Assembly (NCBI GenBank): GCA_014654165.1
Contig: JACWDK010000002.1
Coordinates: forward strand, 1 to 64,000
Source of the DNA: Pelagibacterales bacterium SAG-MED13
Lineage (GTDB): Bacteria; Pseudomonadota; Alphaproteobacteria; Pelagibacterales; Pelagibacteraceae
Direction: 5' to 3'
DNA length: 64,000 bases
Under the pieces are notes generated by a model, which was given only the letters and a program-made list of their open reading frames with translations, searched no databases and was not told the DNA's origin. The translations under genes were made by a program, and so were the position numbers. The stretch's first letter is position 1; every line of letters begins with the position of its first letter. Below are positions 11,175-59,051 of this stretch, one piece after another.

Positions 11175-12257
11175 ATGATTATGGTTCCTATAAAAGAAGC
11201 ACTTACCTTTGATGACGTTACACTTGTACCCAAGTATTCTGAAATTTTACCTGTTGAAGTAGATACAAGCATTAAACTAACAAAAAATCTTAAGCTCAAA
11301 ATACCTCTTTTATCCTCAGCTATGGATACTGTTACTGAAAGTAAAATGGCAATAACTATAGCCAAAGCAGGAGGGATAGGTATTATTCACAGAAATTTAG
11401 ACATTAAAAAACAAATTTTAGAAATAAAAAAAGTTAAAAAGCAAAAACTTTTAGTTGGAGCCGCCGTAGGTGCGGGCCCTAGTGAATTTAAAAGAGCAGA
11501 GGCTATATTAAAAGAAAATATAGACATGGTTGTTGTAGATACGGCTCATGGTCATACTAAAAAAGTTTCAGAGATAATTAAATTTATTAAAAAAAAGAAG
11601 AGTAATAAAACAGCATTATGTGCGGGAAATATCGCAACATCTGCAGCAGCAAAGTTTTTATTAAAATTAGGTGTAGACATCATTAAGGTAGGAATAGGCC
11701 CAGGTTCAATATGCACAACAAGATTAGTAGCTGGTATTGGTGTTCCACAGTTAAGTGCGATCTTAAATGTTAGAAATGGAATCAAAAATAAAAATGTAAA
11801 AATTATTTCTGATGGGGGTATAAAATACTCAGGAGATTTAGCTAAGGCTTTTGCAGCTGGCGCAGATGCAGTAATGATAGGTTCTTTGCTGGCTGGAACA
11901 AAAGAAACACCAGGAAAATTAATTAGAAGAAATGGAAAATTATTTAAGAGTTTTAGAGGAATGGGCTCAGTAGGAGCCATGAACAAAGGATCAGCAGATA
12001 GATACTTTCAATCTAAACAAAAAGATTTATCAAAATATGTACCTGAGGGGGTTGAAGGATTTGTAAAATACAAGGGCAACGTAGATGCTATAATATATAA
12101 ATTAATTGGTGGCCTAAGGTCATCAATGGGTTATTTGGGTTCAAAACAAATTAAATATCTCAGAACAAAACCAGAATTTGTAAAAATCACAAAAGCTGGA
12201 TTTTATGAAAGTATGGTTCATAATGTTGATATAGTTAAAAGTGAAGAAAAATATTAA
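11175..12257 (+). CDS. guaB: Inosine-5'-monophosphate dehydrogenase, apparently lacking the CBS module
   Basis: LTFDDVTLVP, SSAMDTVTESKMAI, GIGPGSICTTRLVAGIGVPQ, GADAVMIGSLLAGTKETPG; only 360 aa. Confidence 0.92.
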   Translation: MIMVPIKEALTFDDVTLVPKYSEILPVEVDTSIKLTKNLKLKIPLLSSAMDTVTESKMAITIAKAGGIGIIHRNLDIKKQILEIKKVKKQKLLVGAAVGAGPSEFKRAEAILKENIDMVVVDTAHGHTKKVSEIIKFIKKKKSNKTALCAGNIATSAAAKFLLKLGVDIIKVGIGPGSICTTRLVAGIGVPQLSAILNVRNGIKNKNVKIISDGGIKYSGDLAKAFAAGADAVMIGSLLAGTKETPGKLIRRNGKLFKSFRGMGSVGAMNKGSADRYFQSKQKDLSKYVPEGVEGFVKYKGNVDAIIYKLIGGLRSSMGYLGSKQIKYLRTKPEFVKITKAGFYESMVHNVDIVKSEEKY

Positions 12258-14247: not shown

Positions 14248-15027
14248 ATGAATGAAAATATTAAAAAAATTTTAAATAAAAAAAATAATTCTAAACTTGT
14301 CTGTCTCACAGCTTATTCTAAAAACATAGCTTCTATTCTAGATAAATATTGTGATATTATCTTAGTAGGAGACTCTCTTGGTTCAGTTTTATATAATTAT
14401 AAATCTACGAAGAAAGTTACTTTAGATACTATGATTAACCATTCTAAAAGTGTTAGATTAGGAGTGAAGAAATCTTTGATGGTAGTGGACATGCCATATA
14501 ACACATATCGTAATCCTAAAGAGGCCTTAAAAAATGCAAAATTAGTAATGAAACAAACTAAATGTGACGCTATCAAATTAGAAGGTGGTAAAAAAATAGT
14601 TTCTATAGTTAAAAGATTAGTTAAAAATAAAATTCCAGTCTTAGGCCACTTGGGTATTTTACCTCAGACTGATAAGAAATTTACTTTTAAAGGTAAAAAA
14701 TCTTTTGAAAGAAACAGAATTCTTAAAGAAGCACAACAACTTGAAGAGGCAGGAATTTTTTCTATAGTTTTGGAGTGTGTGGAAATAGAATTATCAAAGG
14801 TTATAACTAAAAAACTATCTATTCCAACGATTGGAATTGGTTCTTCGGTAAATTGTGATGGCCAAGTATTAGTAATTGATGATCTGATTGGTCTAACTGA
14901 AAGTAAATTTAGATTTGTAAAAAAATACATCAACATAAAGAAAATAATTGATGGAGCAGTTAAAAAATATAAATCTGAAGTATTAATGAAAAAATTTCCA
15001 AAGACCAAGCATTCTTTCAAAACTTAA
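14248..15027 (+). CDS. panB: 3-methyl-2-oxobutanoate hydroxymethyltransferase
   Basis: LTAYSKNIASILDKYCDIILVGDSLG, VDMPYNTY, AIKLEGG, GHLGILPQ, PTIGIGSS. Confidence 0.9.
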   Translation: MNENIKKILNKKNNSKLVCLTAYSKNIASILDKYCDIILVGDSLGSVLYNYKSTKKVTLDTMINHSKSVRLGVKKSLMVVDMPYNTYRNPKEALKNAKLVMKQTKCDAIKLEGGKKIVSIVKRLVKNKIPVLGHLGILPQTDKKFTFKGKKSFERNRILKEAQQLEEAGIFSIVLECVEIELSKVITKKLSIPTIGIGSSVNCDGQVLVIDDLIGLTESKFRFVKKYINIKKIIDGAVKKYKSEVLMKKFPKTKHSFKT

Positions 15028-15032
15028 AACAA

Positions 15033-16514
15033 TTACCCCATTGTGAATGGATCTTTTAAGGGCTTATTAGATGAATTGTACCATGTTGTTTTTACTCGAG
15101 TATATTCTTTAATAGACTCCATACCTGCTTCTTTGCCATAACCACTATCTTTTATACCACCAAAGGGCGCCATAGGAGATATAAGTCTATAGGTATTTAT
15201 GAAAACAATTCCTGCTCTTATAGCATTAGAAACACGATGTCCTCTTGCAAAGTTAGAAGTATAAACTCCAGATGACAATCCATATTTATTGTCATTCATT
15301 TGTTTAATCACTTCTTCTTCTTCATTAAATTTCATTACAGATAATATTGGACCAAATAACTCATTTTCTGCCACAGGAAGATTATGATTTTCACATTCAA
15401 TTATAGTTGCAGGAAAATAATAACCTTTATTTGAAACAGAGGATCTCTCACCACCACATCTTACTTTTCCACCTTGTTCTATAGTGGCTTTAATATTTTT
15501 TTCTATGTTCTCTAGTTGTTTAAAACTATTTAATGGCCCCATTTGAGTGTCATTTTCCATTGGACTACCTAATTTTATATTTTTTGCTTTATTAATTAAT
15601 TTGTTTAAAAATTCATCATAAATTGAATTTTGTAAATAAAGCCTTGAGCCTGCAATACAACTTTGTCCACTAGCTCCAAATATTCCTGCTGTAATACCAT
15701 TTAAAGCATTTTCTTGGTCAGCGTCTTCAAAAACAACTACTGGACTTTTTCCACCTAACTCTAAGCTTACTTGAGACAAATTTTCTGCTGAATTTTTTAC
15801 AATATGTTTTGCTGTTTCAGGGCCACCAGTGAAAGCAATTCTTTCCACAAGATTATGTGTAGTTAGTGCTTTACCACAAGGCTCTCCTAATCCGGTAATT
15901 ATATTAATTACTCCTTTGGGTATTCCAGTTTTTTCTATTAATTTTGCAAATTCTAAAAGGGTTACTGGCGCAAGTTCTGATGCTTTTATTACCACTGTAT
16001 TACCCATTGCGAGCGCAGGAGCAAGCTTTACAGCGGTCAATAGCATTTGAGAATTCCAAGGAATTATTGCTGCTACAACACCAATTGGTATTCTTGTTGT
16101 AGTAACCTGCATGTCAGGTTTATCAATTGGAACTACAGTCCCCTCAACTTTGTCAGCCAGTCCAGCAAAATAATCATAATATTCTGCAATATAATTAGCC
16201 TGGGTTTTTGTTTCTCTATAAATTTTTCCAGTATCTATAGTTTCTATTTTACCTAGATGCTCTGCATTTTTTCTTAGTTGATCTGCAATTAATCTTAAGT
16301 ATTTTGCTCTATCTCTTGGATGAAGTATAGACCAACTATTTTCAAAAGCTTTTTGCGCTGATTGTACTGCTTTATCTACATCTTTTTCATTAGCTTCAGG
16401 AACTGAAGCCCACACCTCATTGTTTTCTGGGTTAAGAGTTTGTATTTTCTTACCCGATGAGGAGTCTACCCATTCACCATTTATATACATTTTAAAATTT
16501 TGAATTTTTGGCAT
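15033..16514 (-). CDS. Aldehyde dehydrogenase family protein
   Basis: IPWNSQMLLTAVKLAPALAMGNTVVIKASELAP, FTGGPETA, LELGGKSPVVVFEDAD, GASGQSCIAGSR. Confidence 0.92.
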   Translation of the reverse strand: MPKIQNFKMYINGEWVDSSSGKKIQTLNPENNEVWASVPEANEKDVDKAVQSAQKAFENSWSILHPRDRAKYLRLIADQLRKNAEHLGKIETIDTGKIYRETKTQANYIAEYYDYFAGLADKVEGTVVPIDKPDMQVTTTRIPIGVVAAIIPWNSQMLLTAVKLAPALAMGNTVVIKASELAPVTLLEFAKLIEKTGIPKGVINIITGLGEPCGKALTTHNLVERIAFTGGPETAKHIVKNSAENLSQVSLELGGKSPVVVFEDADQENALNGITAGIFGASGQSCIAGSRLYLQNSIYDEFLNKLINKAKNIKLGSPMENDTQMGPLNSFKQLENIEKNIKATIEQGGKVRCGGERSSVSNKGYYFPATIIECENHNLPVAENELFGPILSVMKFNEEEEVIKQMNDNKYGLSSGVYTSNFARGHRVSNAIRAGIVFINTYRLISPMAPFGGIKDSGYGKEAGMESIKEYTRVKTTWYNSSNKPLKDPFTMG

Positions 16515-17297
16515 TTAATTATTAATAAAATTCTTGATATTTATATTAACATCATCTGCACACTCTATACTACAAAGATGTTTTCCATTTTTAATTTCAA
16601 TAAAAATTGAATTAGGTAAGTCTTTAGCTAATTCTTTAGACATTTTTGGAGTAGATCCAGGGTCATTAGATCCAGTCATAACTAAAGTCTTTGAAGTAAT
16701 ATTTTTGATTATTAATGAATTATCGTTGTAATTAGCAAATAATTCGTAAGCTTTAAGAAAGTTTTTATGATCCTTGGGTTCTTTAGTTAGTATTTTCATG
16801 AACAAATCGTAAGTCGAAGGATTGCTTTCTAGATAATTGTCACTAAACCATCTTTTTAGTGCTTGTTTTGATATTGGTTTATTTAGTTTAGCTTGGTTAT
16901 ATCTATCTAAAACTAGTGCTCTTTCAGCCTCAGATCTCTTATAAGTTGCCCCGATTAATATAAGTTTATTAACTTTATCTTGGTATTTTGAGGCAAAGTC
17001 TAAGGCTATTAGAGATCCAAGAGAGAAACCAACAAGATTAATCTTTTCTACTTGAAGATTATTTAGAATTTCATCAAGCTGTTTCGAAAAATCATTGAGA
17101 GTTAACTTTTCTTTTTTGCAAGGTGTTTTTCCATGACCTAACAAATCATATGTAATTATAGAGAATTCATTTAATTTACTAATTTGTGATTGCCACATTT
17201 GATGATCAAGACCAACTCCATGAATAAAAACCAAAGGAGTAGTACCTTTTTTTATAAAAAAATAGTGATTTTGATTTGAATCAAAATTATCAGACAT
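16515..17297 (-). CDS. Alpha/beta hydrolase (enol-lactonase/RutD-like)
   Basis: VFIHGVGLDHQMW, nucleophile elbow GFSLGS, GKHLCSIE catalytic His region. Confidence 0.8.
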   Translation of the reverse strand: MSDNFDSNQNHYFFIKKGTTPLVFIHGVGLDHQMWQSQISKLNEFSIITYDLLGHGKTPCKKEKLTLNDFSKQLDEILNNLQVEKINLVGFSLGSLIALDFASKYQDKVNKLILIGATYKRSEAERALVLDRYNQAKLNKPISKQALKRWFSDNYLESNPSTYDLFMKILTKEPKDHKNFLKAYELFANYNDNSLIIKNITSKTLVMTGSNDPGSTPKMSKELAKDLPNSIFIEIKNGKHLCSIECADDVNINIKNFINN

Positions 17298-17301
17298 TGA
17301 A

Positions 17302-17889
17302 CTATTTTGGATCTAAACCCATTTCTTTCATATCCTGATATCGATCTCCAGTCCTAGCATGTGCTCTTCCACTTGAAGCACCTCCTATTGCAATTACTAT
17401 TTCATCATCAAATGGTGCATCATGAATTGTAAACTCATGAGTTAGATAATAAGGTCTTAAACCTGAGTCAGTTTTATGCATCATAGGTATAGATATTTTA
17501 GAGCCTGCAGGAACTCTTGTGTTTGTAAAACTTAAATAAGATGTTCCACCAACAGCATCTCTAAATTTATTTCCAAATCTTAAGGTATGAATGAATGCTG
17601 ATGCATGTTCTATTTCACCATTTAAACCAACAGTTCCTGCTTTACCATAAGCCAAAATTTTTTCTGTTGATCCAATTTCCTTTATTAATTCTGGAACTAA
17701 AATATCACCAAGTTTTGGAGCCAAATCTAAAATAATTGGTTTTAAATCTTCTACAAAACCTTTTCCAGCCCAAGGATTTTTGAACACAGTAGCTACTGAT
17801 ACTAATAAGACCGGTTCTTTAGCTTTTTTTCCACCCTCTATGAAAGTTTTGTCAACAAACTTTGTAAACTTTCTAACTTCTAAATCCAT
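17302..17889 (-). CDS. AA_synth (DUF1185) family protein
   Basis: FKNPWAGKGFVEDL, AYGKAGTVGLNGEIEHASAFIHTLRFGNKFRDAVGG, GGASSGRAHARTGDR. Confidence 0.75.
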   Translation of the reverse strand: MDLEVRKFTKFVDKTFIEGGKKAKEPVLLVSVATVFKNPWAGKGFVEDLKPIILDLAPKLGDILVPELIKEIGSTEKILAYGKAGTVGLNGEIEHASAFIHTLRFGNKFRDAVGGTSYLSFTNTRVPAGSKISIPMMHKTDSGLRPYYLTHEFTIHDAPFDDEIVIAIGGASSGRAHARTGDRYQDMKEMGLDPK

Positions 17890-19055
17890 TAACTTGCTTT
17901 TTCTATATTAGAAGAGTCTAAATTAATTTTTGGAATTACCTCGTCATTAAATAATTTGATACTTCTCATACAAGCTTTATGATCTATACCGGGGAAGTTA
18001 GACCAAACTTGTAGATTTTGTAAATTTAATTCAGATTTTAATTCATTAATCTTATTAACAACATACTCAGGAGTACCAAATAATAAATTTCTTTTATGAA
18101 GAAAATCATAGTTGAGTAAATCCAATTTATGTTTTGTCTCAGGAAGTTCTTCGCCAGGATCCATGTGATTTCCTAAGCCTCTCCAATGACAAACCCATTT
18201 CATATAATTAATGATATGTTCTCCAGCCATTTTTTCTGCTTCTTCCATAGTTTCAGCAACAAACATATCTCTTACTAAAGATATACCTTCTCCTAATGGA
18301 ACATCTCTATTTTCCGCTTTTGATTTTGCTTCTCTATAAATTTCAAATCTTTTTTTTAAAGCTTTAACAGTTGGTATCCACATAATTGTGTTTAAACCAT
18401 TTTGTGCAGCCCACTCAATTGATCTAGCGCCATCAACAACTTGCCAAATAGGAGGATGCGGTGATTGTTTTGGTTTTGGAACAATACTTATTTTTTTTAT
18501 TTCATTTGTTTTTGTATCTAAAAACTTTTCACTTGGCGGACTCATATCATGTTGCCAAACAAAGTTTGGTGATGGATAAGTATAAAATTCACCTTCGTGA
18601 CTAAAAAACTCTTCTGTCCAAGCTTTTTTCATGATTGTTAAAGATTCTTCGAATAGTCTGAAATTTTTAGCTTGATCTTTAAGATCTGCTTCTTTATTCA
18701 TATTTATTGCTTCTCTTCCATAAATCCCTCGGCCAATACCCACATCAACTCTACCACCAGATAATTGATCCAGTAAAGCTATGTCTTCTGCTAATCTTAT
18801 TGGATTATGAAATGTAATGACATTACAGGCTTGACCAATTCTTATTTGTTTAGTTCTAGCTGCTGCATCAACACCCATCATTAAAGGATTTGTACAAGAC
18901 TCCATTCCTTCATGGTTAAAATGATGCTCAGTATACCAAATTGACTCCCAATTATTTTCATCACAAAAAGTTGTGATTTCTTTAGTTTCATCAAGTAGTT
19001 GATTATATGGCTTGTGATTCCAATTCGTTGTGTTGCAAAAATATCCAAATTTCAT
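17889..19055 (-). CDS. LLM-class flavin-dependent monooxygenase/oxidoreductase
   Basis: WESIWYTEHHFNHEG, CNVITFHNPIRLAEDIALLDQLSGGRVDVGIGRG; luciferase-like fold. Confidence 0.88.
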   Translation of the reverse strand: MKFGYFCNTTNWNHKPYNQLLDETKEITTFCDENNWESIWYTEHHFNHEGMESCTNPLMMGVDAAARTKQIRIGQACNVITFHNPIRLAEDIALLDQLSGGRVDVGIGRGIYGREAINMNKEADLKDQAKNFRLFEESLTIMKKAWTEEFFSHEGEFYTYPSPNFVWQHDMSPPSEKFLDTKTNEIKKISIVPKPKQSPHPPIWQVVDGARSIEWAAQNGLNTIMWIPTVKALKKRFEIYREAKSKAENRDVPLGEGISLVRDMFVAETMEEAEKMAGEHIINYMKWVCHWRGLGNHMDPGEELPETKHKLDLLNYDFLHKRNLLFGTPEYVVNKINELKSELNLQNLQVWSNFPGIDHKACMRSIKLFNDEVIPKINLDSSNIEKAS

Positions 19056-19141
19056 TCGAACCTCCTTAAATAATTAAATCTAAGACGATTGATCCCACTT
19101 TCGTATTTTGTAAATATCGACGAGTTATGTATCGCTCAACA

Positions 19142-19170
19142 TTGACTGTAATTTAACTAGACTATTTAAT
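19142..19170 (+). promoter_or_regulatory. Sigma70-like promoter
   Basis: TTGACT - 17 nt - TTTAAT, 26 bp upstream of the 19196 ATG in a divergent intergenic region. Confidence 0.45.
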
Positions 19171-19195
19171 CAATATATATTTAATCAACAATTAA

Positions 19196-19939
19196 ATGAA
19201 ACTAACTAAAATAGAGCCAAAATTTATTGAAAAACATAACCCAAGGATAGGATTAATAACCTTAGCAAGTGACTTTAGGATTGAAAAAGATTTTAACAAT
19301 ATAATTTATGGTAAAGACATAGATTTATTTTGTAATAGAATTCAAAGTTATAATCCCTTAACAAATGAAACATTAAAAAAAATTGCGGATGATATTCCTG
19401 AAGTTGTTAAGAATATCTTACCTGATCAAAAAATTGATTGTATAGCTTATGGATGTACTTCAGGAACAATTGCTGCAGGATATGCATCTATTTATGAAAA
19501 AGTTAATTTAACAAAACCAAATACAAAAGTTACAACACCAATTACATCTGCAATTAATGCATTAAAAGCACTTAAGATAAATAAATTATCTATATTCACA
19601 CCTTATACAGATGAAATAAATCAGTCAGTAATTAATTATTTTAAAAAAGAAAATATAGAAATCTCTGGACTAACTTATTTTGATATAGCCTCAGATTTAG
19701 ATATAGGAAAAGTTAATCCAGATCATTTATTTGATGTTTTAAGTAAAATAGATTTGTTAAATAGTGATGCATTGTTTGTTTCATGTACTGCGTTACCCGT
19801 GTTATCAATTATTAAAGATTTAGAAAAAAAAATGAGTAAAATTGTTTTATCAAGCAATCAAACTTTAATTTGGGACACACTCAAACAGATTGATTTTAAA
19901 AGTAAAGTTGAAGGCTATGGTGAATTATTTAATAATTAG
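19196..19939 (+). CDS. Asp/Glu racemase superfamily, maleate isomerase/AMDase-like
   Basis: Paired cysteine motifs YGCTSGTIAAG and VSCTALPVL. Confidence 0.7.
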   Translation: MKLTKIEPKFIEKHNPRIGLITLASDFRIEKDFNNIIYGKDIDLFCNRIQSYNPLTNETLKKIADDIPEVVKNILPDQKIDCIAYGCTSGTIAAGYASIYEKVNLTKPNTKVTTPITSAINALKALKINKLSIFTPYTDEINQSVINYFKKENIEISGLTYFDIASDLDIGKVNPDHLFDVLSKIDLLNSDALFVSCTALPVLSIIKDLEKKMSKIVLSSNQTLIWDTLKQIDFKSKVEGYGELFNN

Positions 19940-19942
19940 ATT

Positions 19943-21112
19943 ATGAATTTTACTAGTGAAGAATACAAATCAAGATTAAAAAAAGTCCAAGCTTTAATGC
20001 AGAAAAAAGGTATTGAACTTTTAATCTCACAAGATCCATCTAATATGAATTATTTAACAGGTTATGATGCTTGGTCATTTTATTATGCTCAATGTGTAAT
20101 AGTACATGTAAACGCCGATGAACCAATTTGTTTTGTTAGAAATCAAGATGCAGGAGGCGCATATATAAAAACCTATCTAAAAGATGAAAATATAATTAAG
20201 TATCATGAAAAATATATTCATACATGGCCGTTACACCCTTACGATGCTTTAGTAGATCTTATTAAAGAAAGAAAGTGGGACAAACTCTCAGTAGGACTAG
20301 AAATGGATAGTCATTATTTCACAGCTTATTGTTATGAGAAAATTAAAAAAGGATTACCAAATGCAAAAATTTTGGATTGTGAGCGGTTAGTAAATTGGAT
20401 TAGAGTTGTAAAATCTGATGCAGAAATAAAATTTATGAAAGCTGCATCTCAAATTTCTCAACTAGGAATGAAAAAAGCTTTTGAAGTTATTAGTCCAGGA
20501 GTAAGACAATGCGATGCAGTTTCAGAAATTTATACTACATTAATAAAAGGAACTCCTGATTTTGGAGGAGACTATTCATCAATAGTTCCAATGATACCAA
20601 CTGGAAGAGGTACATCTGCTTCACATTTAACATGGTCAGAGGATAAATTTGTAGAAGGAGAAGCTACAATTATTGAATTATCAGGAGTTAATAAAAAATA
20701 TCACTGTCCTATGGCTCGTACAGTTTTACTTGGGACACCAGATAAAAAAAAAATTGATACTATGAGTAAGACTAATGAAGCTCTCCAAGCAGGAATAGAT
20801 CTGGTTAAAGCAGGAAATACTGCTGATGACGTTGCTCAAGCTTTTTGGAAAGTGTTAGACAAGTATGGAATAGAAAAAACTTCAAGAACTGGATATTCCA
20901 TTGGCATAGGATATCCACCTGATTGGGGTGAGCATACTTTAAATATTTCTAAAGGAGATATGACAGTTTTACAACCCAATATTACTTTTCATATGATTGC
21001 AGTGATGCAATTTGGAAATTGGGGCGTTGAAGCATCTGAAGCAATTAGAGTTACAGATAAGGGTTATGAATTATTTTGTAACTTTTCTAAAGAACTTCAT
21101 GTTAAAAGCTAG
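19943..21112 (+). CDS. M24 metallopeptidase family (Xaa-Pro aminopeptidase/ectoine hydrolase DoeA-like)
   Basis: KKGIELLISQDPSNMNYLTGYDAWSFY; M24 fold motifs, DoeA-like N-terminus. Confidence 0.75.
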   Translation: MNFTSEEYKSRLKKVQALMQKKGIELLISQDPSNMNYLTGYDAWSFYYAQCVIVHVNADEPICFVRNQDAGGAYIKTYLKDENIIKYHEKYIHTWPLHPYDALVDLIKERKWDKLSVGLEMDSHYFTAYCYEKIKKGLPNAKILDCERLVNWIRVVKSDAEIKFMKAASQISQLGMKKAFEVISPGVRQCDAVSEIYTTLIKGTPDFGGDYSSIVPMIPTGRGTSASHLTWSEDKFVEGEATIIELSGVNKKYHCPMARTVLLGTPDKKKIDTMSKTNEALQAGIDLVKAGNTADDVAQAFWKVLDKYGIEKTSRTGYSIGIGYPPDWGEHTLNISKGDMTVLQPNITFHMIAVMQFGNWGVEASEAIRVTDKGYELFCNFSKELHVKS

Positions 21113-21168: not shown

Positions 21169-22248
21169 ATGAATAAAGAATTCGTAAAATTTGATAAAGT
21201 AGACAAAAGTTATGACGGTAAAATACTTGTCGTAAAAGATCTTCAATTAGATATTGAAGAAGGAGAGTTTGTTACTATGTTGGGACCCTCTGGTTCAGGT
21301 AAGACTACTTGCTTAATGATGTTGGCAGGATTTGAAACACCAACCCATGGTGAAATTTATTTAGACGGAAAAGCAATTTCAAGTATTCCACCCCATAAAA
21401 GAGGTATCGGAATGGTATTTCAAAATTATGCTTTATTTCCACATATGACAGTTTATGAAAATTTAGCATTTCCTTTAAGAGTTAGAAAAATTCCTAAAGA
21501 TGAAGCAGATAAAAAAATTGATAAAGCACTATCAATGGTTTCACTACAAGGATTTGCTCAAAGAATGCCAGGTCAATTGTCTGGTGGACAGCAACAAAGA
21601 GTTGCAGTAGCGAGGTCACTAGTATTTGATCCACAACTAGTTTTAATGGATGAACCTCTTGGTGCTTTAGATAAAAATTTAAGAGAGAGTATGCAGTATG
21701 AAATTAAACATATTCATGAAAGTATTGGGGTAACTGTTGTTTATGTAACCCATGACCAAAGTGAAGCACTTACAATGTCAAATCGTATTGCAGTTTTTAA
21801 TGATGGTAAAGTTCAACAACTCTCAAGTCCTGATGAACTGTATGAAAAACCAGTTAATTCATTTGTTGCAGAATTTATCGGAGAAAATAACACTTTCGCC
21901 GGAGAGGTGTCAGATATTTCTAGTGGAAAATGTAAAGTAAAATTAGCTAATGCAGAGATATTAGCAAATCCTATTTCTGTTAAAGGAAAAGGGGATAAAA
22001 CAACTGTATCTTTAAGACCTGAGAGAGCTTTAATTAATCCAAGTGATAAGATGGATAATGTTCACAACGGAAAAATTGAAGAAGTTATCTATCATGGTGA
22101 CCATACTAGAGTAAGAATTAATTTATTAGGAAATTCTGAATTTATTCTAAAAGTACCTAATAGCTCAGCAAATCTTGATATTAAATTAGGTAATGAAATC
22201 AAGATTGGCTGGAATAGTGAAGACGCTAGGGCTTTAGACCCAAAATAA
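21169..22248 (+). CDS. ABC transporter ATP-binding protein, spermidine/putrescine (PotA)-like
   Basis: GPSGSGKTT, LSGGQQQRVAVARSL, LMDEPLGALD, TOBE-like C-terminus. Confidence 0.92.
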   Translation: MNKEFVKFDKVDKSYDGKILVVKDLQLDIEEGEFVTMLGPSGSGKTTCLMMLAGFETPTHGEIYLDGKAISSIPPHKRGIGMVFQNYALFPHMTVYENLAFPLRVRKIPKDEADKKIDKALSMVSLQGFAQRMPGQLSGGQQQRVAVARSLVFDPQLVLMDEPLGALDKNLRESMQYEIKHIHESIGVTVVYVTHDQSEALTMSNRIAVFNDGKVQQLSSPDELYEKPVNSFVAEFIGENNTFAGEVSDISSGKCKVKLANAEILANPISVKGKGDKTTVSLRPERALINPSDKMDNVHNGKIEEVIYHGDHTRVRINLLGNSEFILKVPNSSANLDIKLGNEIKIGWNSEDARALDPK

Positions 22249-22285
22249 ACATCAATTAAATCCTGTAAACTAACAAAAAGGGTTG

Positions 22286-22314
22286 TTGACTCTCATTATC
22301 TAACTTGTTGTAAT
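22286..22314 (+). promoter_or_regulatory. Sigma70-like promoter for the substrate-binding protein gene
   Basis: TTGACT - 17 nt - TGTAAT, 34 bp upstream of the ATG at 22348. Confidence 0.55.
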
Positions 22315-22347
22315 CTGTTTTTATAAAAACGTTTAAACGGAGGAAAA

Positions 22348-23469
22348 ATGAAAACAATTAGTAAATTATTACTAGCCATTTCTTTTGCTATCTCTGTAAC
22401 TACTTCAGCATTTGCAGTAACTGCAGTGTCTTGGGGTGGAGCTTACACGGAGTCTCAAAAGTTAGGTTATGGTGATCCTACTGGTAAAGCCCTTGGTATA
22501 ACTATCAACTGGGTTGATTATTCAGGTGGATTATCTGAGATAAAAGCACAAAAAGAAGCTGGTAAAATTACGTGGGATATAATCGACGTATTTGCAATGG
22601 ATACTATCAATGGATGTGATGAAGGATTATTTGTTGAATTTGATTTTGACAAAGACTTCCCACCTGCACCAGATGGAACTCCTGCAAGTAAAGATTTCTT
22701 TACTGCAATGCCAAGTAAATGTGCTGTAGGAAATATTTTATATTCTTGGAACTACGCTTACAACAAAGAAAATGTTAAGGGTACTCCAAAGACTATCAAA
22801 GATTTCTTCAACACTAAAAAATTCCCTGGAAAAAGAGCTATCTACAAAGGCGCTCTAACAAACTTAGAAATCGCTTTAGCTGCAGATGGAGTTAAACCAG
22901 GAAAAGGTGGAGCAAAAATCTATAAAGCCTTAAACACAGATAAAGGTGTTGATAGAGCTATGAACAAGATCAAAGAGCTTTGCACAGATCCAAAAGGAGG
23001 ATGTGTATTTTGGTCTGCAGGTGCTCAACCACCAGAACTATTAATGAGTGGTGAAGTTGTTATGGCAACTGGTTGGAATGGTAGATTCTTTAACGCGATC
23101 GTTGGAGAAGGTGCGCCACTAGTTCAAGTATGGGATGGACAAGGTCTTGACTATGAGTACTTCGTACAAGTTAAGGGTGGACCAAACGATGCTAATGGTA
23201 TGGCTAAGAAAGCTTTAGCTATGATGACAAGCACAGAGATGTTAGCAGGAAGTGCAAAATATATCGCATACGCTCCTTGGAGAAAATCTTCTATAGCTAT
23301 TATGGAAGCAGGAGAGCCTTGGTATAAAGATGGTAAGACTAATATGGTACCACAAATGCCAACTGCACCAGCTAATACTAAGAATTATTTCTTAGTTGAT
23401 CCACTTTACTGGGCTGATAACGGTACAGAGCTTGGTGAAAAATGGGAAGCTATGAAAGCAGGTCTATAA
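22348..23469 (+). CDS. ABC transporter periplasmic substrate-binding protein (PotD-like)
   Basis: Signal peptide; VSWGGAYTESQKLGY...; lies inside a Pot-like cluster. Confidence 0.88.
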   Translation: MKTISKLLLAISFAISVTTSAFAVTAVSWGGAYTESQKLGYGDPTGKALGITINWVDYSGGLSEIKAQKEAGKITWDIIDVFAMDTINGCDEGLFVEFDFDKDFPPAPDGTPASKDFFTAMPSKCAVGNILYSWNYAYNKENVKGTPKTIKDFFNTKKFPGKRAIYKGALTNLEIALAADGVKPGKGGAKIYKALNTDKGVDRAMNKIKELCTDPKGGCVFWSAGAQPPELLMSGEVVMATGWNGRFFNAIVGEGAPLVQVWDGQGLDYEYFVQVKGGPNDANGMAKKALAMMTSTEMLAGSAKYIAYAPWRKSSIAIMEAGEPWYKDGKTNMVPQMPTAPANTKNYFLVDPLYWADNGTELGEKWEAMKAGL

Positions 23470-23506
23470 TTTAAGTTTTATTAAGCTTAATTATATATTA
23501 TAATTT

Positions 23507-23533
23507 AAGGGCGGTTATTTGATAACCGCCCTT
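23507..23533 (+). terminator. Strong hairpin plus T-tract between the binding protein and permease genes
   Basis: AAGGGCGGTTAT-TTG-ATAACCGCCCTT followed by TTT. Confidence 0.8.
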
Positions 23534-23540
23534 TTTATTT

Positions 23541-24794
23541 ATGAGCTCAGAAACAAAACAAATTTTAACAACAGATGGAATTCCTTTAGAGGTAAGTCTT
23601 AAAAAAGCTGAAAGAAGGAATAAGATTAAAGCCCTCATGCTTGTAGCACCTCTGCTCTTATTTATAATTATCACTTATGTTTTTCCAATTGGAGACATGC
23701 TTATGAGAAGTGTAGATGATAAGATGGTCACTGAAATGCTTCCCAAAACTTTTAAAGCGATGGAAAAATGGGATGGAAAAGAATTACCAGAGGAAGAAGT
23801 TTTCGCAGCTTTTCATTCAGATTTTATAAAGTTAGTAGAAGAAAAACGTGAGGGAAAATTATCTACACAATTAAATTATACAAAAAATGGATTTAAAAGT
23901 ATTATTAAAAAATTAAGAAGAAAATCTAAATCTTTTGAAGAAGGAAACTATAAGGAACAAATAATGGCCGTTCACAAAAGATGGGCTAACGTTGAATATT
24001 GGCAAGCGATTAAAAGAAGAGCTCCAGCATATACTGGTCAGAAATATCTTAAGGGTATAGATATGTTTAAAAATGAGAATGGAGAAATAGTAAATGTTCC
24101 TGAAGATAGACGAATTCATAGAGTTTTATGGCTTAGGACTTTAGAAATAGCATTTTTTGTAACACTATTTTGTTTTTTAATGGCATATCCAATTGCTCAT
24201 TTGTTAGCTACTTTACCTATGAAGTATAGTAACCTACTAATGATCTGTGTCCTCCTTCCTTTTTGGACATCATTATTAGTAAGAACTGCAAGTTGGATGA
24301 TCTTGTTACAACAACAGGGTTTGGTTAATGATTTCTTTGTTGGGATAGGATTAGTGGCCGATGACAATAGACCTGAAATGATGTTTAATAAAACAGGTAG
24401 CTATGTTGCAATGACACAGATTTTGTTACCTTTTATGGTTTTGCCACTTTACAGTGTGATGAAAACTATTTCCCCAAGCTTAATGAGAGCTGGAAAGTCA
24501 TTAGGTGGAACGCCTTTTATAGCTTTTTGGAAGGTTTATTTTCCATTAACTATTCCAGGTATTGGAGCTGGTTGTTTATTGGTTTTCATATTAGCTATAG
24601 GTTATTATATAACCCCTGCTTTGGTAGGAGGAGCCTCTGGTACTCTAATCAGTAATCAAATTGCATTTCATATGAAGAGTACGCTTGATTGGAGCTTCGC
24701 ATCAGCAATGGGTTTAATGTTATTGACTGGAGTTTTAGCGATTTACTGGGTGTATAATAAATTAGTTGGAATAGATAATATTAAATTAGGTTAA
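23541..24794 (+). CDS. ABC transporter permease (PotB-like)
   Basis: Multiple TM helices; permease loop KSLGGTPFIAFWKVYFPLTIPGI. Confidence 0.88.
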   Translation: MSSETKQILTTDGIPLEVSLKKAERRNKIKALMLVAPLLLFIIITYVFPIGDMLMRSVDDKMVTEMLPKTFKAMEKWDGKELPEEEVFAAFHSDFIKLVEEKREGKLSTQLNYTKNGFKSIIKKLRRKSKSFEEGNYKEQIMAVHKRWANVEYWQAIKRRAPAYTGQKYLKGIDMFKNENGEIVNVPEDRRIHRVLWLRTLEIAFFVTLFCFLMAYPIAHLLATLPMKYSNLLMICVLLPFWTSLLVRTASWMILLQQQGLVNDFFVGIGLVADDNRPEMMFNKTGSYVAMTQILLPFMVLPLYSVMKTISPSLMRAGKSLGGTPFIAFWKVYFPLTIPGIGAGCLLVFILAIGYYITPALVGGASGTLISNQIAFHMKSTLDWSFASAMGLMLLTGVLAIYWVYNKLVGIDNIKLG

Positions 24795-24797
24795 AAA

Positions 24798-25652
24798 ATG
24801 GCTTTACCAAAATATACTGAACCACATTATAGAATTTGGCATTATGTTTATTTGACTGTTTGTGCAGCAGTTTTCTTTTTTCTTATTGCCCCATTATTTG
24901 TAATTTTTCCATTATCTTTTAACGCTGAGGAATTTTTAGTTTTTTCTGATGGAATGAAAAGTCTAGATCCTGATGCTTTTTCATTAAGATGGTATAAGGA
25001 CATGATTTATGGAACCAAAAATCCTTGGGGTTTAGCTACAAAAAATAGTTTTATAATTGCAACTTTTGCAACCATTGGTTCAGTTATTTTGGGAACTGTT
25101 GCTGCTTTAGGCTTAAGCAGCAGACACATGCCTTATAAAGGTCTAATCATGGCTGTTTTAATATCCCCAATGATTGTTCCATTAATTATTTCTGGAGTGG
25201 CAATATTTTTCTTTATGGCTAAAGCTGGTTTAGCAGCAACTCATTTAGGCATAATCCTTGCACATATTATTTTAGGGACACCATTTGTAGTAATAACTGT
25301 TACTGCAACTTTATCAGGATTTGATCATAGTGTTACAAGAGCTGCAGCAAGTCTTGGTAGTAATCCAGTTAATACTTTTATGAAAATTACCCTACCATTA
25401 ATTTTACCAGGTGTCATCTCAGGTGGACTATTTGCTTTTGTAACTTCATTTGATGAAGTCGTAGTAGTCTTATTCCTAGCTGGATTAGAAAATACTACAA
25501 TCCCCATACAAATGTGGACAGGTTTAAGAGAACAGTTAAGTCCAACTATTCTTGCAGTCGCAACTTGTCTGATTATTCTATCAACATTAATATTGGTTAC
25601 TGCTGAACTCTTAAGAAGAAGATCTGAGAGACTCAGAGGTATTAACAGATAG
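24798..25652 (+). CDS. ABC transporter permease (PotC-like)
   Basis: AAASLGSNPVNTFMKITLPLILPGV EAA loop, TM helices. Confidence 0.9.
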   Translation: MALPKYTEPHYRIWHYVYLTVCAAVFFFLIAPLFVIFPLSFNAEEFLVFSDGMKSLDPDAFSLRWYKDMIYGTKNPWGLATKNSFIIATFATIGSVILGTVAALGLSSRHMPYKGLIMAVLISPMIVPLIISGVAIFFFMAKAGLAATHLGIILAHIILGTPFVVITVTATLSGFDHSVTRAAASLGSNPVNTFMKITLPLILPGVISGGLFAFVTSFDEVVVVLFLAGLENTTIPIQMWTGLREQLSPTILAVATCLIILSTLILVTAELLRRRSERLRGINR

Positions 25653-25664
25653 TAAGAACATTAC

Positions 25665-27887
25665 ATGAAAATTAAGAACGTAGTAGTGATTGGTTCAGGA
25701 ACAATGGGAAGTGGGATAGCTGCTCATTTATGTAATGCAAATGTACCAGTTACTTTACTAGATTTGAAAACTGAAATTAGTGAAAAAGCAAGAGATAGAA
25801 TTCATAAATCCAGACCACCTTTATTAATTGATAGAACAAAAATTAATAATATTAAAGTTGGAAATATAGATGATAATTTTGATGTAGTTAAGGAAGCTGA
25901 TTGGGTTGTTGAAGCAGTCGTGGAAAGAATTGATATCAAGCATCAAATTTATGAAAAAATATTTAAAGCAAGAAAAGAAGGAGCGATTGTTTCCTCAAAT
26001 ACGTCATCTATTCCAATTAAAGTCTTATCAGAACACTTAACTGATAAAGAAAAAAAAGATTTTTGTATTACCCACTTTTTTAATCCAGTTAGGTATATGG
26101 GGCTTTTAGAAATTGTTAAAAATGAAAATAATGATCTTAATAAAATAAACGAATTAAAAGAATTTTGTGAAATAGAGCTAGGTAAAGGTGCAATTATTTG
26201 CAATGATACACCAGGTTTTTTAGGAAACAGAGTAGGTGTTTATGCTATGCAAATAGCTATGACTGAAGCTTTTAAGATGAAACTTTCAGTTGAGGAAGCA
26301 GATGCTATTTTTGGAAGACCAATGGGAATCCCTAAAACTGGTGTATTTGGACTGTATGACTTAATTGGTATTGATTTGATGGCAGATGTTTTAAAAAGCT
26401 TTATTAAAGAATTACCTGAAAAAGATGAATTTCATGACGTATCAAAAGAAATTCCATTAGTAAAAAAATTAATTGAAACTGGTTATACAGGAAGAAAAGG
26501 CAAGGGTGGTTTTTATAGGATGAATAAAACTGGAACTTCTAAAGTGATGGAGGCAATTAATCTTGAGACCGGGGAATACTCGCTTTCAAAAAAAATTGAT
26601 GTGAAATCAGATAAAATAGATCTCAATGGATTAATAAATAGAAAAGATAAATATGGTGAATATGCTTGGTCAGTAATATCTAAAATAATAAAATACGCAT
26701 CATCTTTAGTTCCAGGTATTACAAAAGAGTTTAATGATATTGACGAAGCAATGAGACTAGGTTTTAATTGGGCCAAAGGTCCATTTGAAATGCTTGAGGA
26801 AATAGGAGTAAAAAATTTCTTTGATAAAGTTGATAATTTTAAAGGGAATAGTTTTTTGGAAAATTTATCTAAGAACAAGAATCAGGATTTTTATGGTGAA
26901 AGACAAAAATATACTAATATAGAAACTTTAGGAAAAGTTAAGAAAACAGCTTCAAGTCTGGATGGAAATGAGTCAGCAAAAATTTATAGGTTTAATGATT
27001 ATAATATTGTTGAGTTTACCACTAAAGCAAATGCTTTAGATTATGACTCTATGGATGCCTTAAAAAAAGCAACTGATAAACCTTTAATTATAATTAATGA
27101 AAGTATGCAATTTTCTGCTGGTGTAAATTTGTCTTACACAATGGAATTTGCTAATAAAAAAGATTTTAAATCTATTGAAAAATTTATCAGATACTTTCAA
27201 GAAACATGTAAACATTTGAAATATTCAAAACATCCTGTGATATCTGCTCCCTCTGGATTAACACTGGGAGGAGGATTTGAAGTAATGGTTCAAAGTAATT
27301 TTGTCGCTTCTCATACAAATATAGTAGTTGGATTAGTTGAAACTATAGTTGGTTTAATTCCTGCAGGTGGTGGATGTAAGGAAATGTTAGCTAGATGGCT
27401 TGATACGGATGAAGCAAAAAAAGATTCAAATTACGCTCCGTTAAAAGTTTTCGACATTATAGGATATGGCAAGACAGCCACCTCTCCAGTTGAAGCAGAG
27501 CCAATGAAATATTTAAGACCAAGTGATAAAAAGATAATGAACAGAAATAGCTTACTAGAAGTTTCCAAGAAAATACTAAGTGAAAATAAAAATTTTAAAG
27601 CACCTGAGGAACTTAAATTTAATCTTCCTGGAAAATCAGTAAGAGGTGAGATGGATAAAATTTTAGAAAAACTTTATAATGACAAGGTTATATTTGAACA
27701 TGGGGTTGAGGTTGCAAAAGAACTAGCTCATGTTTTGAGTGGAGGGGATACCACAATCGACAAAACTTTATCAGAAGATGATTTATTTAAATTAGAATTA
27801 GATGCCTTTATGAGATTAATAGAAACTCAAAAAACTCAAGATAGAATTAAACATACATTGAGCACTGGGAAACCATTAGTAAATTAA
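25665..27887 (+). CDS. 3-hydroxyacyl-CoA dehydrogenase / enoyl-CoA hydratase fusion (FadN-like domain order)
   Basis: N-terminal VVIGSGTMGSGIAAHL, 3HCDH SSNTSSIPI, C-terminal crotonase SAPSGLTLGGGFEV. Confidence 0.88.
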   Translation: MKIKNVVVIGSGTMGSGIAAHLCNANVPVTLLDLKTEISEKARDRIHKSRPPLLIDRTKINNIKVGNIDDNFDVVKEADWVVEAVVERIDIKHQIYEKIFKARKEGAIVSSNTSSIPIKVLSEHLTDKEKKDFCITHFFNPVRYMGLLEIVKNENNDLNKINELKEFCEIELGKGAIICNDTPGFLGNRVGVYAMQIAMTEAFKMKLSVEEADAIFGRPMGIPKTGVFGLYDLIGIDLMADVLKSFIKELPEKDEFHDVSKEIPLVKKLIETGYTGRKGKGGFYRMNKTGTSKVMEAINLETGEYSLSKKIDVKSDKIDLNGLINRKDKYGEYAWSVISKIIKYASSLVPGITKEFNDIDEAMRLGFNWAKGPFEMLEEIGVKNFFDKVDNFKGNSFLENLSKNKNQDFYGERQKYTNIETLGKVKKTASSLDGNESAKIYRFNDYNIVEFTTKANALDYDSMDALKKATDKPLIIINESMQFSAGVNLSYTMEFANKKDFKSIEKFIRYFQETCKHLKYSKHPVISAPSGLTLGGGFEVMVQSNFVASHTNIVVGLVETIVGLIPAGGGCKEMLARWLDTDEAKKDSNYAPLKVFDIIGYGKTATSPVEAEPMKYLRPSDKKIMNRNSLLEVSKKILSENKNFKAPEELKFNLPGKSVRGEMDKILEKLYNDKVIFEHGVEVAKELAHVLSGGDTTIDKTLSEDDLFKLELDAFMRLIETQKTQDRIKHTLSTGKPLVN

Positions 27888-31105: not shown

Positions 31106-32539
31106 ATGGAAAATAAAAAAAATTTTTATATTGATGGTAAATGGGTGATACCTAAAAGCAAAGAACACATAAAAGTAATTGATCCTTCTAATGAGAAAGA
31201 ATGTGCTATAATATCATTTGGTAACAAAGAAGATGTTGATATCGCAGTAAAAGCAGCAAAAAAAGCTTATAGCTCATGGTCGTTTTCATCAAAAGATGAA
31301 AGAATAAAATTATTAGAAAAGCTTTATGAAAACTATAAGAAAAGATGGGCAGATATTGCAGAGGCAATTACAATTGAAATGGGTGCACCAAAAGATTTTG
31401 CTACAAAACTTCAAGCCGGAACAGGTGCGGCTCATTTAAAGTCTTTTATAAGATATTTAAAAAATTTTGAATTCGAAAAACCATTGGGCGAACATGCTCC
31501 AAATCAAAGACTAATTTATGAACCAAAAGGAGTTTGTGCGTTAATAACCCCTTGGAATTGGCCAATGAATCAAGTTTGTTTAAAAGTTATGCCAGCGATA
31601 GCATCTGGATGCACGATGGTTCTAAAACCATCCGAACTTGCACCTTTGTCATCAATGATACTTGCTGAACTAATAGATGATACTAAATTTCCAGCAGGAG
31701 TATTCAATTTAGTTAATGGAGATGGAGCTATAACAGGTGATGCATTAACAAGCCATCCAGATATAAATATGATTTCTTTTACAGGGTCAACTAGAGCAGG
31801 TGCTTTGATTTCTCAAAATGCAGCAAAAGATTTTAAAAGAGTAAGTTTAGAATTAGGAGGCAAAGGAGCAAATATTATATTTAAAGATGCTGATCCTGAT
31901 GCAATTGAAAGAGGTGCTTTAAGATGTTTTAGAAATTCTGGTCAATCATGTAATGCTCCGACAAGAATGTTAGTAGAAAAATCAATGTATAGTGAAGCAA
32001 TAGAGAGATTAAAAAAATATACAGAAAATTTTGAAGTAGGTGATCCTAAAAAAGAAGGAGAACATATAGGTCCAGTAATTTCAGAAATTCAATATAATAA
32101 AATTCAATCTTTAATTAAAAAGGGAATAGATGAAGGTGCTAAATTAATTGCAGGTGGTCCTGGAAAACCAAAGGGTTTAGAAAAAGGTTATTTTGTAAAA
32201 CCTACAGTTTTTGCAGATGTTAATAATGATATGGAGGTAGCTAGAACAGAAATCTTTGGACCTGTATTGTCTGTGATACCTTTTGAAACTGAAGAAGAAG
32301 CAATTGAAATAGCTAATGATACACCTTATGGGTTAACTAATTATATTCAAACTAAAGATCCAGAAAAAGTAAAACGAGTTGCAAGAAAGTTAAGATCAGG
32401 AATGGTAGATGTAAATGGAGCTGGTATAGCCGTCGATGCACCTTTTGGTGGTTTTAAACATTCTGGAATTGGTCGAGAGGCAGGGCAACATGGACTCGAC
32501 GAATTTTTAGAAGTAAAATCTGTAGGTGGTTGGAGTTAA
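31106..32539 (+). CDS. Aldehyde dehydrogenase family protein
   Basis: TPWNWPMNQVCLKVMPAIASGCTMVLKPSELAP, FTGSTRAGALI, LELGGKGANIIF, NSGQSCNAP. Confidence 0.92.
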   Translation: MENKKNFYIDGKWVIPKSKEHIKVIDPSNEKECAIISFGNKEDVDIAVKAAKKAYSSWSFSSKDERIKLLEKLYENYKKRWADIAEAITIEMGAPKDFATKLQAGTGAAHLKSFIRYLKNFEFEKPLGEHAPNQRLIYEPKGVCALITPWNWPMNQVCLKVMPAIASGCTMVLKPSELAPLSSMILAELIDDTKFPAGVFNLVNGDGAITGDALTSHPDINMISFTGSTRAGALISQNAAKDFKRVSLELGGKGANIIFKDADPDAIERGALRCFRNSGQSCNAPTRMLVEKSMYSEAIERLKKYTENFEVGDPKKEGEHIGPVISEIQYNKIQSLIKKGIDEGAKLIAGGPGKPKGLEKGYFVKPTVFADVNNDMEVARTEIFGPVLSVIPFETEEEAIEIANDTPYGLTNYIQTKDPEKVKRVARKLRSGMVDVNGAGIAVDAPFGGFKHSGIGREAGQHGLDEFLEVKSVGGWS

Positions 32540-33726
32540 TTAATAGTAGATTGTTTTTTTAAATCATTTAGAAATTTTAAACATTTTTTTAATTCATTGA
32601 GTTCTATAAATTCATCTACTTTGTGCGCTTGTTCTATCGAACCTGGGCCACAAACAACTGTACTCATACCAATTTCTTGAAATAACCCAGCCTCTGTTCC
32701 AAAAGATACAACTTCTCTTGAATTATCTCCAGTGAGACTTGAAACTAGCTCGCAAGCTTCAGATTTTTCAACACGATCAAACCCTGTGACCTCTCCTATA
32801 ACTTCTTTTCGAATATTTGATTTAGAAAAAACTTTTTTCATTTCTGGCAAAAGAAAATTATTTGCATATTCATCAATTTTTTTATTTAAGAAAATGCCAT
32901 CTTCTTTTACAACTGGTCTTGTTTCCCAATTAATATGACATTTATCAGCTATAACGTTATGAGCTATACCTCCAAATATTCCTCCTATCTGTAAAGTTGA
33001 AAAAGGAGGATCAAATATAGAATCTTTAGGAGCTCTTTTTTTGAGCTCATCTCTCAATTCAATTAATTTTGATGCATACCTTGCTGCAAACTCAACAGCA
33101 CTAACACCCTTATGTGGGGCAGAGCTATGTCCTGCCAAACCCTCAAAATAAGTTGTATATTCATAGCAACCTTTATGTGCATCTATGATTTTCATTTTTG
33201 TAGGTTCTCCAATAATACAAATACCATTTTCAACATTTCTTTTTTTAAGTTCCTCGATTAGAATTGGTGCTCCTAAGCAAGCAGTTTCTTCATCAAAGGT
33301 AAATGAAAAATGGATGTCTCTATTTAGATTTGTTTTTGCATAAATTGGTGCAAAAGCTAAAGTACATGCCAAAAAACCTTTCATGTCACAAGAACCTCTA
33401 CCATAAAGTTTATTATCCTTAATTGTTGCTTTAAAAGGGTCGGTACTCCAACTTTTAGAAACAGGCACTGTATCTGTATGTCCAGATAGAATTATTGGTT
33501 TAATACCATTTGTTTTTTTTGCCTTAATAGTTGCAAATAGATTTACTCTTTTCTTTTCACTATCAAATGTCTTAAAAGAAGTTGCACCAATTTTATTGAG
33601 TAAATTTTCACAGTAATTAATCAACTCACTATTATCTTCTCCTGAAATAGTCCTAAAACTTATTAGATCTGATAAAATTTTTACAGAATCCTTGTATATT
33701 TCTTTTAAATTAATTTCTGTACTCAT
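32536..33726 (-). CDS. argE: Acetylornithine deacetylase (ArgE)-like M20 peptidase
   Basis: LSGHTDTVPVSKSWSTDPF, YGRGSCDMKGFLA, FDEETACLGAP, GEPTKMK. Confidence 0.85.
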   Translation of the reverse strand: MSTEINLKEIYKDSVKILSDLISFRTISGEDNSELINYCENLLNKIGATSFKTFDSEKKRVNLFATIKAKKTNGIKPIILSGHTDTVPVSKSWSTDPFKATIKDNKLYGRGSCDMKGFLACTLAFAPIYAKTNLNRDIHFSFTFDEETACLGAPILIEELKKRNVENGICIIGEPTKMKIIDAHKGCYEYTTYFEGLAGHSSAPHKGVSAVEFAARYASKLIELRDELKKRAPKDSIFDPPFSTLQIGGIFGGIAHNVIADKCHINWETRPVVKEDGIFLNKKIDEYANNFLLPEMKKVFSKSNIRKEVIGEVTGFDRVEKSEACELVSSLTGDNSREVVSFGTEAGLFQEIGMSTVVCGPGSIEQAHKVDEFIELNELKKCLKFLNDLKKQSTIN

Positions 33727-49746: not shown

Positions 49747-49766
49747 ATATTTTTCTCTCTAATTTT

Positions 49767-59048: not shown

Positions 59049-59051
59049 ATT

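Follow-up and report, generated by a model that had tools for sequence, protein, structure and literature searches.

The window, a stretch of 64,000 nucleotides from a SAR11 (Pelagibacter) draft genome, carries four genes on its minus strand at 15033-19055, encoding an LLM-class monooxygenase, an AA_synth protein (DUF1185, PF06684), an alpha/beta hydrolase and an aldehyde dehydrogenase (ALDH), here referred to as the cassette. On the plus strand, in divergent orientation to the cassette, are genes for an EutA-like protein, a DoeA-like protein and a Pot-type ABC transporter:

14248-15027, plus strand: panB (PF02548), at the left edge of the cassette insertion site
15033-16514, minus strand: aldehyde dehydrogenase, TgnC-like (PF00171, 546 bits)
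16515-17297, minus strand: alpha/beta hydrolase, TgnD-like (PF00561, 101 bits), proposed to perform the hydrolytic release step
17302-17889, minus strand: AA_synth (DUF1185) protein of the TgnF-type subfamily (PF06684, 212 bits)
17889-19055, minus strand: LLM-class FMN monooxygenase of the "type B" clade (PF00296, 156 bits), proposed ring-opening oxygenase
19196-19939, plus strand: EutA-like protein of the Asp/Glu racemase/AMDase superfamily (TIGR02990, Amdase PF17645), separate module
19943-21112, plus strand: DoeA/EutD-like M24 hydrolase (TIGR02993), separate module
21169-25652, plus strand: PotA-SBP-PotB-PotC polyamine-type ABC transporter (TIGR01187; SBP match 8jv1), separate module
25665-27887, plus strand: 3-hydroxyacyl-CoA dehydrogenase/crotonase fusion (NF052272), in an operon shared with Pot

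The six open reading frames from the ALDH to the DoeA-like gene lie at these coordinates, and profile matches placed them in these families. The four minus-strand genes, described as packed in a preliminary description of this DNA, are operon-like: the LLM and AA_synth genes overlap by 1 nt, the AA_synth and hydrolase genes are separated by 4 nt, and the gap between the hydrolase and ALDH genes is 0 nt. No regulator gene was found within the cassette cluster, and no riboswitch or other Rfam element reached the gathering score in the window. An agmatinase gene lies close to these genes and an acetylornithine-deacetylase-type gene at 32536-33726.

We then compared the locus across SAR11. The gene order of the cassette is identical in all 70 Pelagibacter loci with sufficient contig reach (10 of the 80 loci are interrupted by a contig end and were not counted for order), indicating that the four-gene arrangement is far from chance; one variant carries an extra ThDP enzyme gene in the operon. 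Linkage in relatives holds for the four minus-strand genes and is broken between EutA-DoeA-Pot and the cassette. Two cassette-free loci, L211 and L219, have eutA immediately after panB, which is an exact empty site, and keep EutA-DoeA-PotABCD, while in some genomes the cassette is found 10-57 kb from this unit or among different neighbours. AA_synth is present in 42 of 127 near-complete Pelagibacteraceae and DoeA in 89 of 127. In 35 of 53 genomes that contain both, the two lie on separate contigs or at a distance of more than 10 kb. The cassette is thus an accessory, portable module inserted between panB and EutA-DoeA-PotABCD, which is a unit separate from it.

The preliminary description knew of no exact match for this combination and was reminded of RutA/RutD and maleamate-type routes. 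These routes are not the closest match and gave no equivalog-level hit: the hydrolase scores 81 bits against a RutD cut-off of 238.5, and the RutA model is absent among the best 25 LLM matches listed. The minus-strand set instead matches a known type: outside SAR11, its counterparts make up the ring-opening cassette of the trigonelline (tgn) type, in most cases together with a flavin reductase. An Acinetobacter tgn-like locus contains GntR, AA_synth, hydrolase, flavin reductase, LLM, ALDH, permease, porin and SSADH genes. Among 82 other alphaproteobacterial AA_synth loci, 23 are of the TgnF type and 59 of another subfamily; a hydrolase is adjacent in 20, an ALDH in 14 and an LLM in 13 of the former, as opposed to 1, 0 and 1 of the latter (p<=3.2e-8 each). 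A related Thioclava cassette adjoins a BCCT-family transporter and another, L119, a Rieske protein with weak similarity to glycine-betaine monooxygenase, neighbours which fit a quaternary-ammonium substrate.

As far as it is outlined in PMC7913881 and PMC8269262, the Acinetobacter tgn system (Perchat et al. 2018) shares with the SAR11 cassette an LLM, an AA_synth protein, an alpha/beta hydrolase and an ALDH in one operon-like set; in these accounts TgnF is homologous to HcdD, a DUF1185 protein (PMC7913881), and the trigonelline ring is opened by TgnA/TgnB (PMC8269262). Compared with tgn as outlined there, the SAR11 LLM falls in a different clade, the gene order differs, and the cassette comes without a flavin reductase, a GntR regulator or an adjacent SSADH. 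A TgnF-subfamily AA_synth, a TgnC-like ALDH and a TgnD-like hydrolase with its catalytic residues were found, whereas a TgnB orthologue and a TgnA-type flavin reductase (PF01613) were not.

The AA_synth family divides into two subfamilies distinct by sequence, tree and neighbourhood, and the cassette protein belongs to the TgnF type. It matches the Acinetobacter tgn-type homologue at 53% over its full length and cassette-borne homologues at 53-59%, and its solved homologues are 2qtp and 3byq. The ALDH matches the Acinetobacter cassette ALDH at 50% over its full length, compared to 32% for the SSADH-like ALDH of the same Acinetobacter locus, and conserves Cys286 and Glu252. For the hydrolase, which matches its Acinetobacter tgn-type homologue at 30% over its full length, the triad Ser92-Asp212-His240 together with Arg121, Arg132 and Arg149-Trp150 is kept in 93% or more of the 36 homologues compared. 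Its YKR...R pattern (Arg121, Arg132) is common to SAR11 and Acinetobacter tgn-type hydrolases. As judged from these alignments, the catalytic residues of the cassette enzymes are intact.

The SAR11 LLM matches the Acinetobacter tgn-type LLM at 29% and at 56% that of G211, whose cassette has a flavin reductase. In the tree it forms its own clade (support 100/100) apart from TgnB-like enzymes, and by sequence it is not a TgnB orthologue. We also searched for its flavin supply. None of the nine SAR11 genomes examined, of which seven carry the cassette, contains PF01613 (controls positive in 13 of 14). PF03358 proteins occur in 8/8 SAR11 genomes tested, cassette-free ones included, so that no PF03358 reductase is dedicated to the cassette, and a PF00881 nitroreductase occurs in one of eight; neither was retained as a candidate, the first being ubiquitous and hence uninformative. 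It is possible, with the odds against it, that the type-B LLM represents a new monooxygenase which opens the ring with a regiochemistry of its own and without a dedicated flavin reductase, and that the cassette is an accessory module deciding which SAR11 ecotypes eat N-methylpyridinium betaines.

Based on these comparisons, we infer, with a probability of roughly 0.55, that the cassette is a tgn-type accessory catabolic set for the FMNH2-dependent opening of an N-methylpyridinium betaine, followed by aldehyde oxidation and hydrolytic release, homarine being the likeliest substrate. This agrees with the gene identities and the ring-cleavage-like catabolism of an N-containing compound put forward at the outset. 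With FMNH2 and O2, the LLM would break the ring open to an N-formyl-N-methyl-enamide aldehyde, which the ALDH would oxidise to a dicarboxylate; the hydrolase would then take formate off the nitrogen, and AA_synth may play an auxiliary part. For homarine (N-methylpicolinate), cleavage at C5-C6 would yield N-methyl-dehydroglutamate, which could enter the N-methylglutamate pathway probably encoded nearby. Surface ocean particles contain homarine at nM levels (PMC8269262), values that were later corrected downwards (PMC10134881). On steric grounds, Heal et al. doubted that the Tgn oxygenase acts on homarine (PMC8269262), an objection which counts against TgnB itself and not against a different LLM. 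Mgd is said to act in homarine catabolism in a 2026 report (PMC13390433). A second Sox/Mgd-like (SoxD-family) copy occurs in all near-complete genomes with the cassette (8/8) but also in most of those without it (6/9); it is therefore not discriminating, and Mgd co-occurrence was dropped as a substrate marker.

If the cassette degraded trigonelline itself, the LLM would open the ring, the ALDH oxidise the product and the hydrolase free methylamine, formate, CO2 and succinic semialdehyde. Three of the four proteins have homologues in the tgn-type set of Acinetobacter, and trigonelline occurs in the sea, with Ruegeria growing on it (PMC8269262). However, the LLM clade differs from the TgnB-like enzymes, no close TgnB-type LLM was detected in 297 Pelagibacteraceae genomes (a search without positive control), SSADH is not adjacent to the cassette, and the samples in question contain far less trigonelline than homarine (PMC8269262), which makes this reading improbable. 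A non-pyridine cyclic substrate, subject to Baeyer-Villiger oxidation by the LLM, enol-lactone hydrolysis by the hydrolase and oxidation of the released semialdehyde by the ALDH, appears rather unlikely: the nearest solved relatives do include 3,6-diketocamphane 1,6-monooxygenase (LLM) and 3-oxoadipate enol-lactonase (hydrolase), the ThDP enzyme joins the operon in the variant mentioned above, and a hydroxycoumarin cluster also has a DUF1185 protein (PMC7913881), but the YKR...R pattern is missing in the enol-lactonase alignment, and the ALDH and AA_synth are nearer to tgn-type cassettes than to the other families examined.

We consider it very improbable that all these genes form the single divergent cluster initially described, in which PotABCD would import and six enzymes would degrade one N-containing compound. 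In 47 Pelagibacter loci EutA does lie less than 400 bp from the LLM, DoeA is more frequent in genomes with the cassette than in those without it (37/42 vs 52/85; p=0.002, uncorrected for phylogeny), and Pot-type transporters flank some other cassettes (L083, L120, L166, L169). Nevertheless, the exact empty sites largely refute such a cluster, as does the broken linkage, and DoeA was near none of the 23 cassette-type AA_synth loci outside SAR11. The agmatinase gene nearby also speaks against it. PotA scores above the TIGR01187 cut-off, and the SBP scores 604 bits against 8jv1, a solved spermidine/putrescine-binding protein, and occurs once per genome in nine SAR11 genomes, cassette present or absent. 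The transporter is the polyamine-type PotABCD of SAR11 (PMC8437039), without notable difference, and is a neighbour of the cassette only; being single-copy and cassette-independent, it was ruled out as importer of the cassette substrate. The dehydrogenase/crotonase fusion (NF052272, 499 bits full-length, cut-off 999) remains with Pot in cassette-free genomes.

The neighbouring EutA-DoeA pair has a reasonable, though less than even, chance of being on its own an ectoine-type hydrolase module with another deacetylase. The superfamily of the maleate-isomerase/AMDase-like racemase of the preliminary description stands, and the protein is more exactly EutA-like (TIGR02990, 183 bits, cut-off 318; Amdase PF17645, 72 bits), with cysteines 87 and 197 in two superfamily-type motifs. 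The adjacent DoeA-like protein (TIGR02993, 463 bits, cut-off 613) matches solved DoeA 6twk with 357 bits and retains the motifs GDY..IVPM.PTG, HLTW and YPPDWGE. Both are full-length model matches, EutA and EutD are likewise neighbours in known ectoine clusters (PMC13188858), and the acetylornithine-deacetylase-type gene could fit this reading. On the other hand, both scores are below the curated cut-offs, the EutE/DoeB deacetylase (TIGR02994) is missing from nine SAR11 genomes, and the pair, outside the cassette, has a polyamine-type and not an ectoine transporter alongside.

SAR11 is the most abundant heterotroph of the surface ocean, and to our knowledge few catabolic routes for aromatic N-compounds are known in it. 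If our reading is true, the patchy four-gene cassette (42/127 near-complete Pelagibacteraceae) would give a marker set, trackable in metagenomes, that is tied to an abundant phytoplankton metabolite. Ferrer-Gonzalez et al. (2026, Nat Microbiol 11:1531) reportedly describe a conserved homarine pathway, with an operon homABCDER that is said to be present also in SAR11. Compared by description, the likeness to the cassette would lie in an N-methylpyridinium betaine substrate abundant in the sea. That paper may already cover the SAR11 locus; should it assign the SAR11 genes, the exact empty site, the separation from Pot/EutA/DoeA, the LLM clade of its own and the absence of the reductase would still be new. 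GMAS-type and MgsABC-type genes lie inside the window, and a SoxA-family cluster just past it, the SoxA-family protein adjoining Fhs and Tmm.

The source genome (G000) is a 1.01-Mb draft, 86% complete, with the window on its contig C12, and the best 80 public-genome matches of the window's AA_synth protein (PF06684, DUF1185) all come from Pelagibacteraceae or Pelagibacterales, with identity up to 98%, which places the genome in SAR11. The genes named in the preliminary description were all found, and its coordinates hold. On the minus strand, the luciferase-like monooxygenase (LLM) and AA_synth genes overlap by 1 nt, a 4-nt gap separates AA_synth from the hydrolase, and hydrolase and ALDH adjoin with 0 gap; panB and the cassette ALDH lie tail to tail with 5 nt between their ends. 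Across 80 Pelagibacter loci retrieved with AA_synth, the order LLM-AA_synth-hydrolase-ALDH was whole in 70, truncated by a contig end in 10 and broken in 0. The four minus-strand genes are one module.

The divergent genes form a separate module, which runs EutA-like, DoeA-like, PotA, SBP (the substrate-binding protein), PotB, PotC, HADH/crotonase fusion and PhyH-family protein. Two other genomes, G207 (locus L211) and G477 (L219), show the order guaA-panB-EutA-DoeA-PotABCD-HADH, in which EutA immediately follows panB, an exact empty site for the cassette. Among near-complete Pelagibacteraceae, DoeA occurs in 89/127 and AA_synth in 42/127, DoeA being present in 37/42 cassette carriers versus 52/85 others (p=0.002, not phylogeny-corrected). 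In 53 sampled genomes with both genes, they lie at most 10 kb apart on one contig in 18, 10-60 kb apart in 23 and on different contigs in 12. Because DoeA is commoner in carriers and never more than 60 kb from AA_synth on a common contig, the region behaves like one common neighbourhood in which the gap between the two modules varies.

The SBP scores 604 bits against the solved spermidine/putrescine-binding protein 8jv1, and each of nine genomes, cassette-bearing and cassette-free alike, holds a single SBP. This match, the single SBP per genome and a nearby agmatinase fit the polyamine PotABCD described for SAR11 (PMC8437039).

30105-31085: agmatinase

AA_synth proteins fall into two subfamilies, ~31-40% and ~49-72% identical to the queries. 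At alphaproteobacterial loci the second, cassette-type subfamily adjoins hydrolase in 20/23, ALDH in 14/23 and LLM in 13/23; the other shows no LLM/ALDH association (hydrolase 1/59, ALDH 0/59, LLM 1/59) and is frequently present as two copies in tandem, with neither LLM nor ALDH (L131, L141, L145 and other loci). Accompanied by a flavin reductase, and in many cases by a GntR regulator, the cassette set is found again in Rhizobium, Shinella, Chimaeribacter, Leisingera and Thioclava plasmids. An unannotated Acinetobacter record consecutively encodes GntR, AA_synth, hydrolase, flavin reductase, LLM, ALDH, permease, porin and SSADH; we infer that it is the trigonelline (tgn) cluster, since TgnF is reported to be homologous to a DUF1185 protein (PMC7913881) and TgnA/TgnB to be the ring-opening oxygenase (PMC8269262).

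Full-length alignments of the SAR11 cassette with this cluster give 50% identity for ALDH, 53% for AA_synth and 30% for the hydrolase; LLM is only 29% identical. A tree of 37 LLMs separates, with 100/100 support, a TgnB-like 'type A' side from a 'type B' side that holds the SAR11 enzymes and those of genomes G211 (56%) and G226 (45%). A PF01613 flavin reductase was found in 0/9 SAR11 genomes, while 13/14 control genomes were positive; since G211 still has a flavin reductase gene immediately upstream of LLM-AA_synth-hydrolase-ALDH, its loss from SAR11 is probable. FMNH2 could come from PF03358 FMN reductase-like proteins, which 8/8 genomes tested encode. Relative to tgn, the SAR11 cassette is a variant with a distinct oxygenase clade and without reductase or regulator. 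Upstream of the G211 cassette, L119:11774-15519 also holds a Rieske oxygenase with weak similarity to glycine betaine monooxygenase, as well as a DAO-family oxidoreductase that weakly resembles L-pipecolate oxidase.

In 13/70 complete Pelagibacter cassettes a ThDP-dependent enzyme is inserted into the operon, and in some a methyltransferase as well. These ThDP-bearing cassettes have DMT and Liv-type transporter genes alongside, with EutA/DoeA/Pot absent within the stretch examined. The enzyme is part of the cassette at loci L050, L057, L061, L068, L208 and L209, which points to a variant pathway with another substrate or end product; the SAR11 form and that of two other alphaproteobacteria share 61% identity.

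Catalytic residues are intact in the hydrolase (Ser92-Asp212-His240) and ALDH (Cys286, Glu252), and the hydrolase residues Arg121, Arg132 and Arg149-Trp150 would suit a polycarboxylate substrate. On the Tgn model, ring opening by LLM would fall between C5 and C6; ALDH would act on the C5 aldehyde, oxidising it, and the N-formyl group would be removed by the hydrolase. With trigonelline, such a route ends in succinic semialdehyde and methylamine. With homarine, its predicted product would be N-methyl-dehydroglutamate, one reduction away from N-methylglutamate. The abstract of the homarine study reportedly lists SAR11 as one of the groups that carry the hom operon; in that case, the cassette locus is probably covered already.

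N-methylglutamate dehydrogenase (Mgd) was shown to act in homarine catabolism by a 2026 report, according to its citation in PMC13390433. Mgd-like genes are present in cassette-free genomes too, and therefore the presence of Mgd and methylamine genes is only consistent with homarine. A SoxA-family cluster lies directly beyond the window end, and the methylamine block comprises the following intervals, which also hold a GCV_T/DUF1989 protein resembling TMAO demethylase and an OpuAC-type SBP with ABC parts.

46551-51236 (-): GMAS-type (glutamine-synthetase-like) and MgsABC-type genes
53073-55412 (-): methylamine block
55511-56455 (+): methylamine block
58020-61205 (+): methylamine block
61213-62544 (-): methylamine block
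Just before the window end: trimethylamine monooxygenase (Tmm; 728 bits, cut-off 675)

Just past the window, beside SoxD and SoxA-family genes, a SoxB-like ORF is in two pieces (L224:5394-6651, on G000:C12); the break is a frameshift or an assembly error. A second type III glutamine-synthetase-like gene (42812-44151, -) is likewise broken, as if by a frameshift, into an ORF at 43363-44151 and another at 42812-43357. An IMP dehydrogenase-like ORF (11175-12257, +) is only 360 aa long, its CBS-domain insert apparently missing. At 41681-42808 (-) lies a diaminopropionate ammonia-lyase-like protein (397 bits against one curated cut-off of 276), unusual company in a streamlined SAR11 genome.
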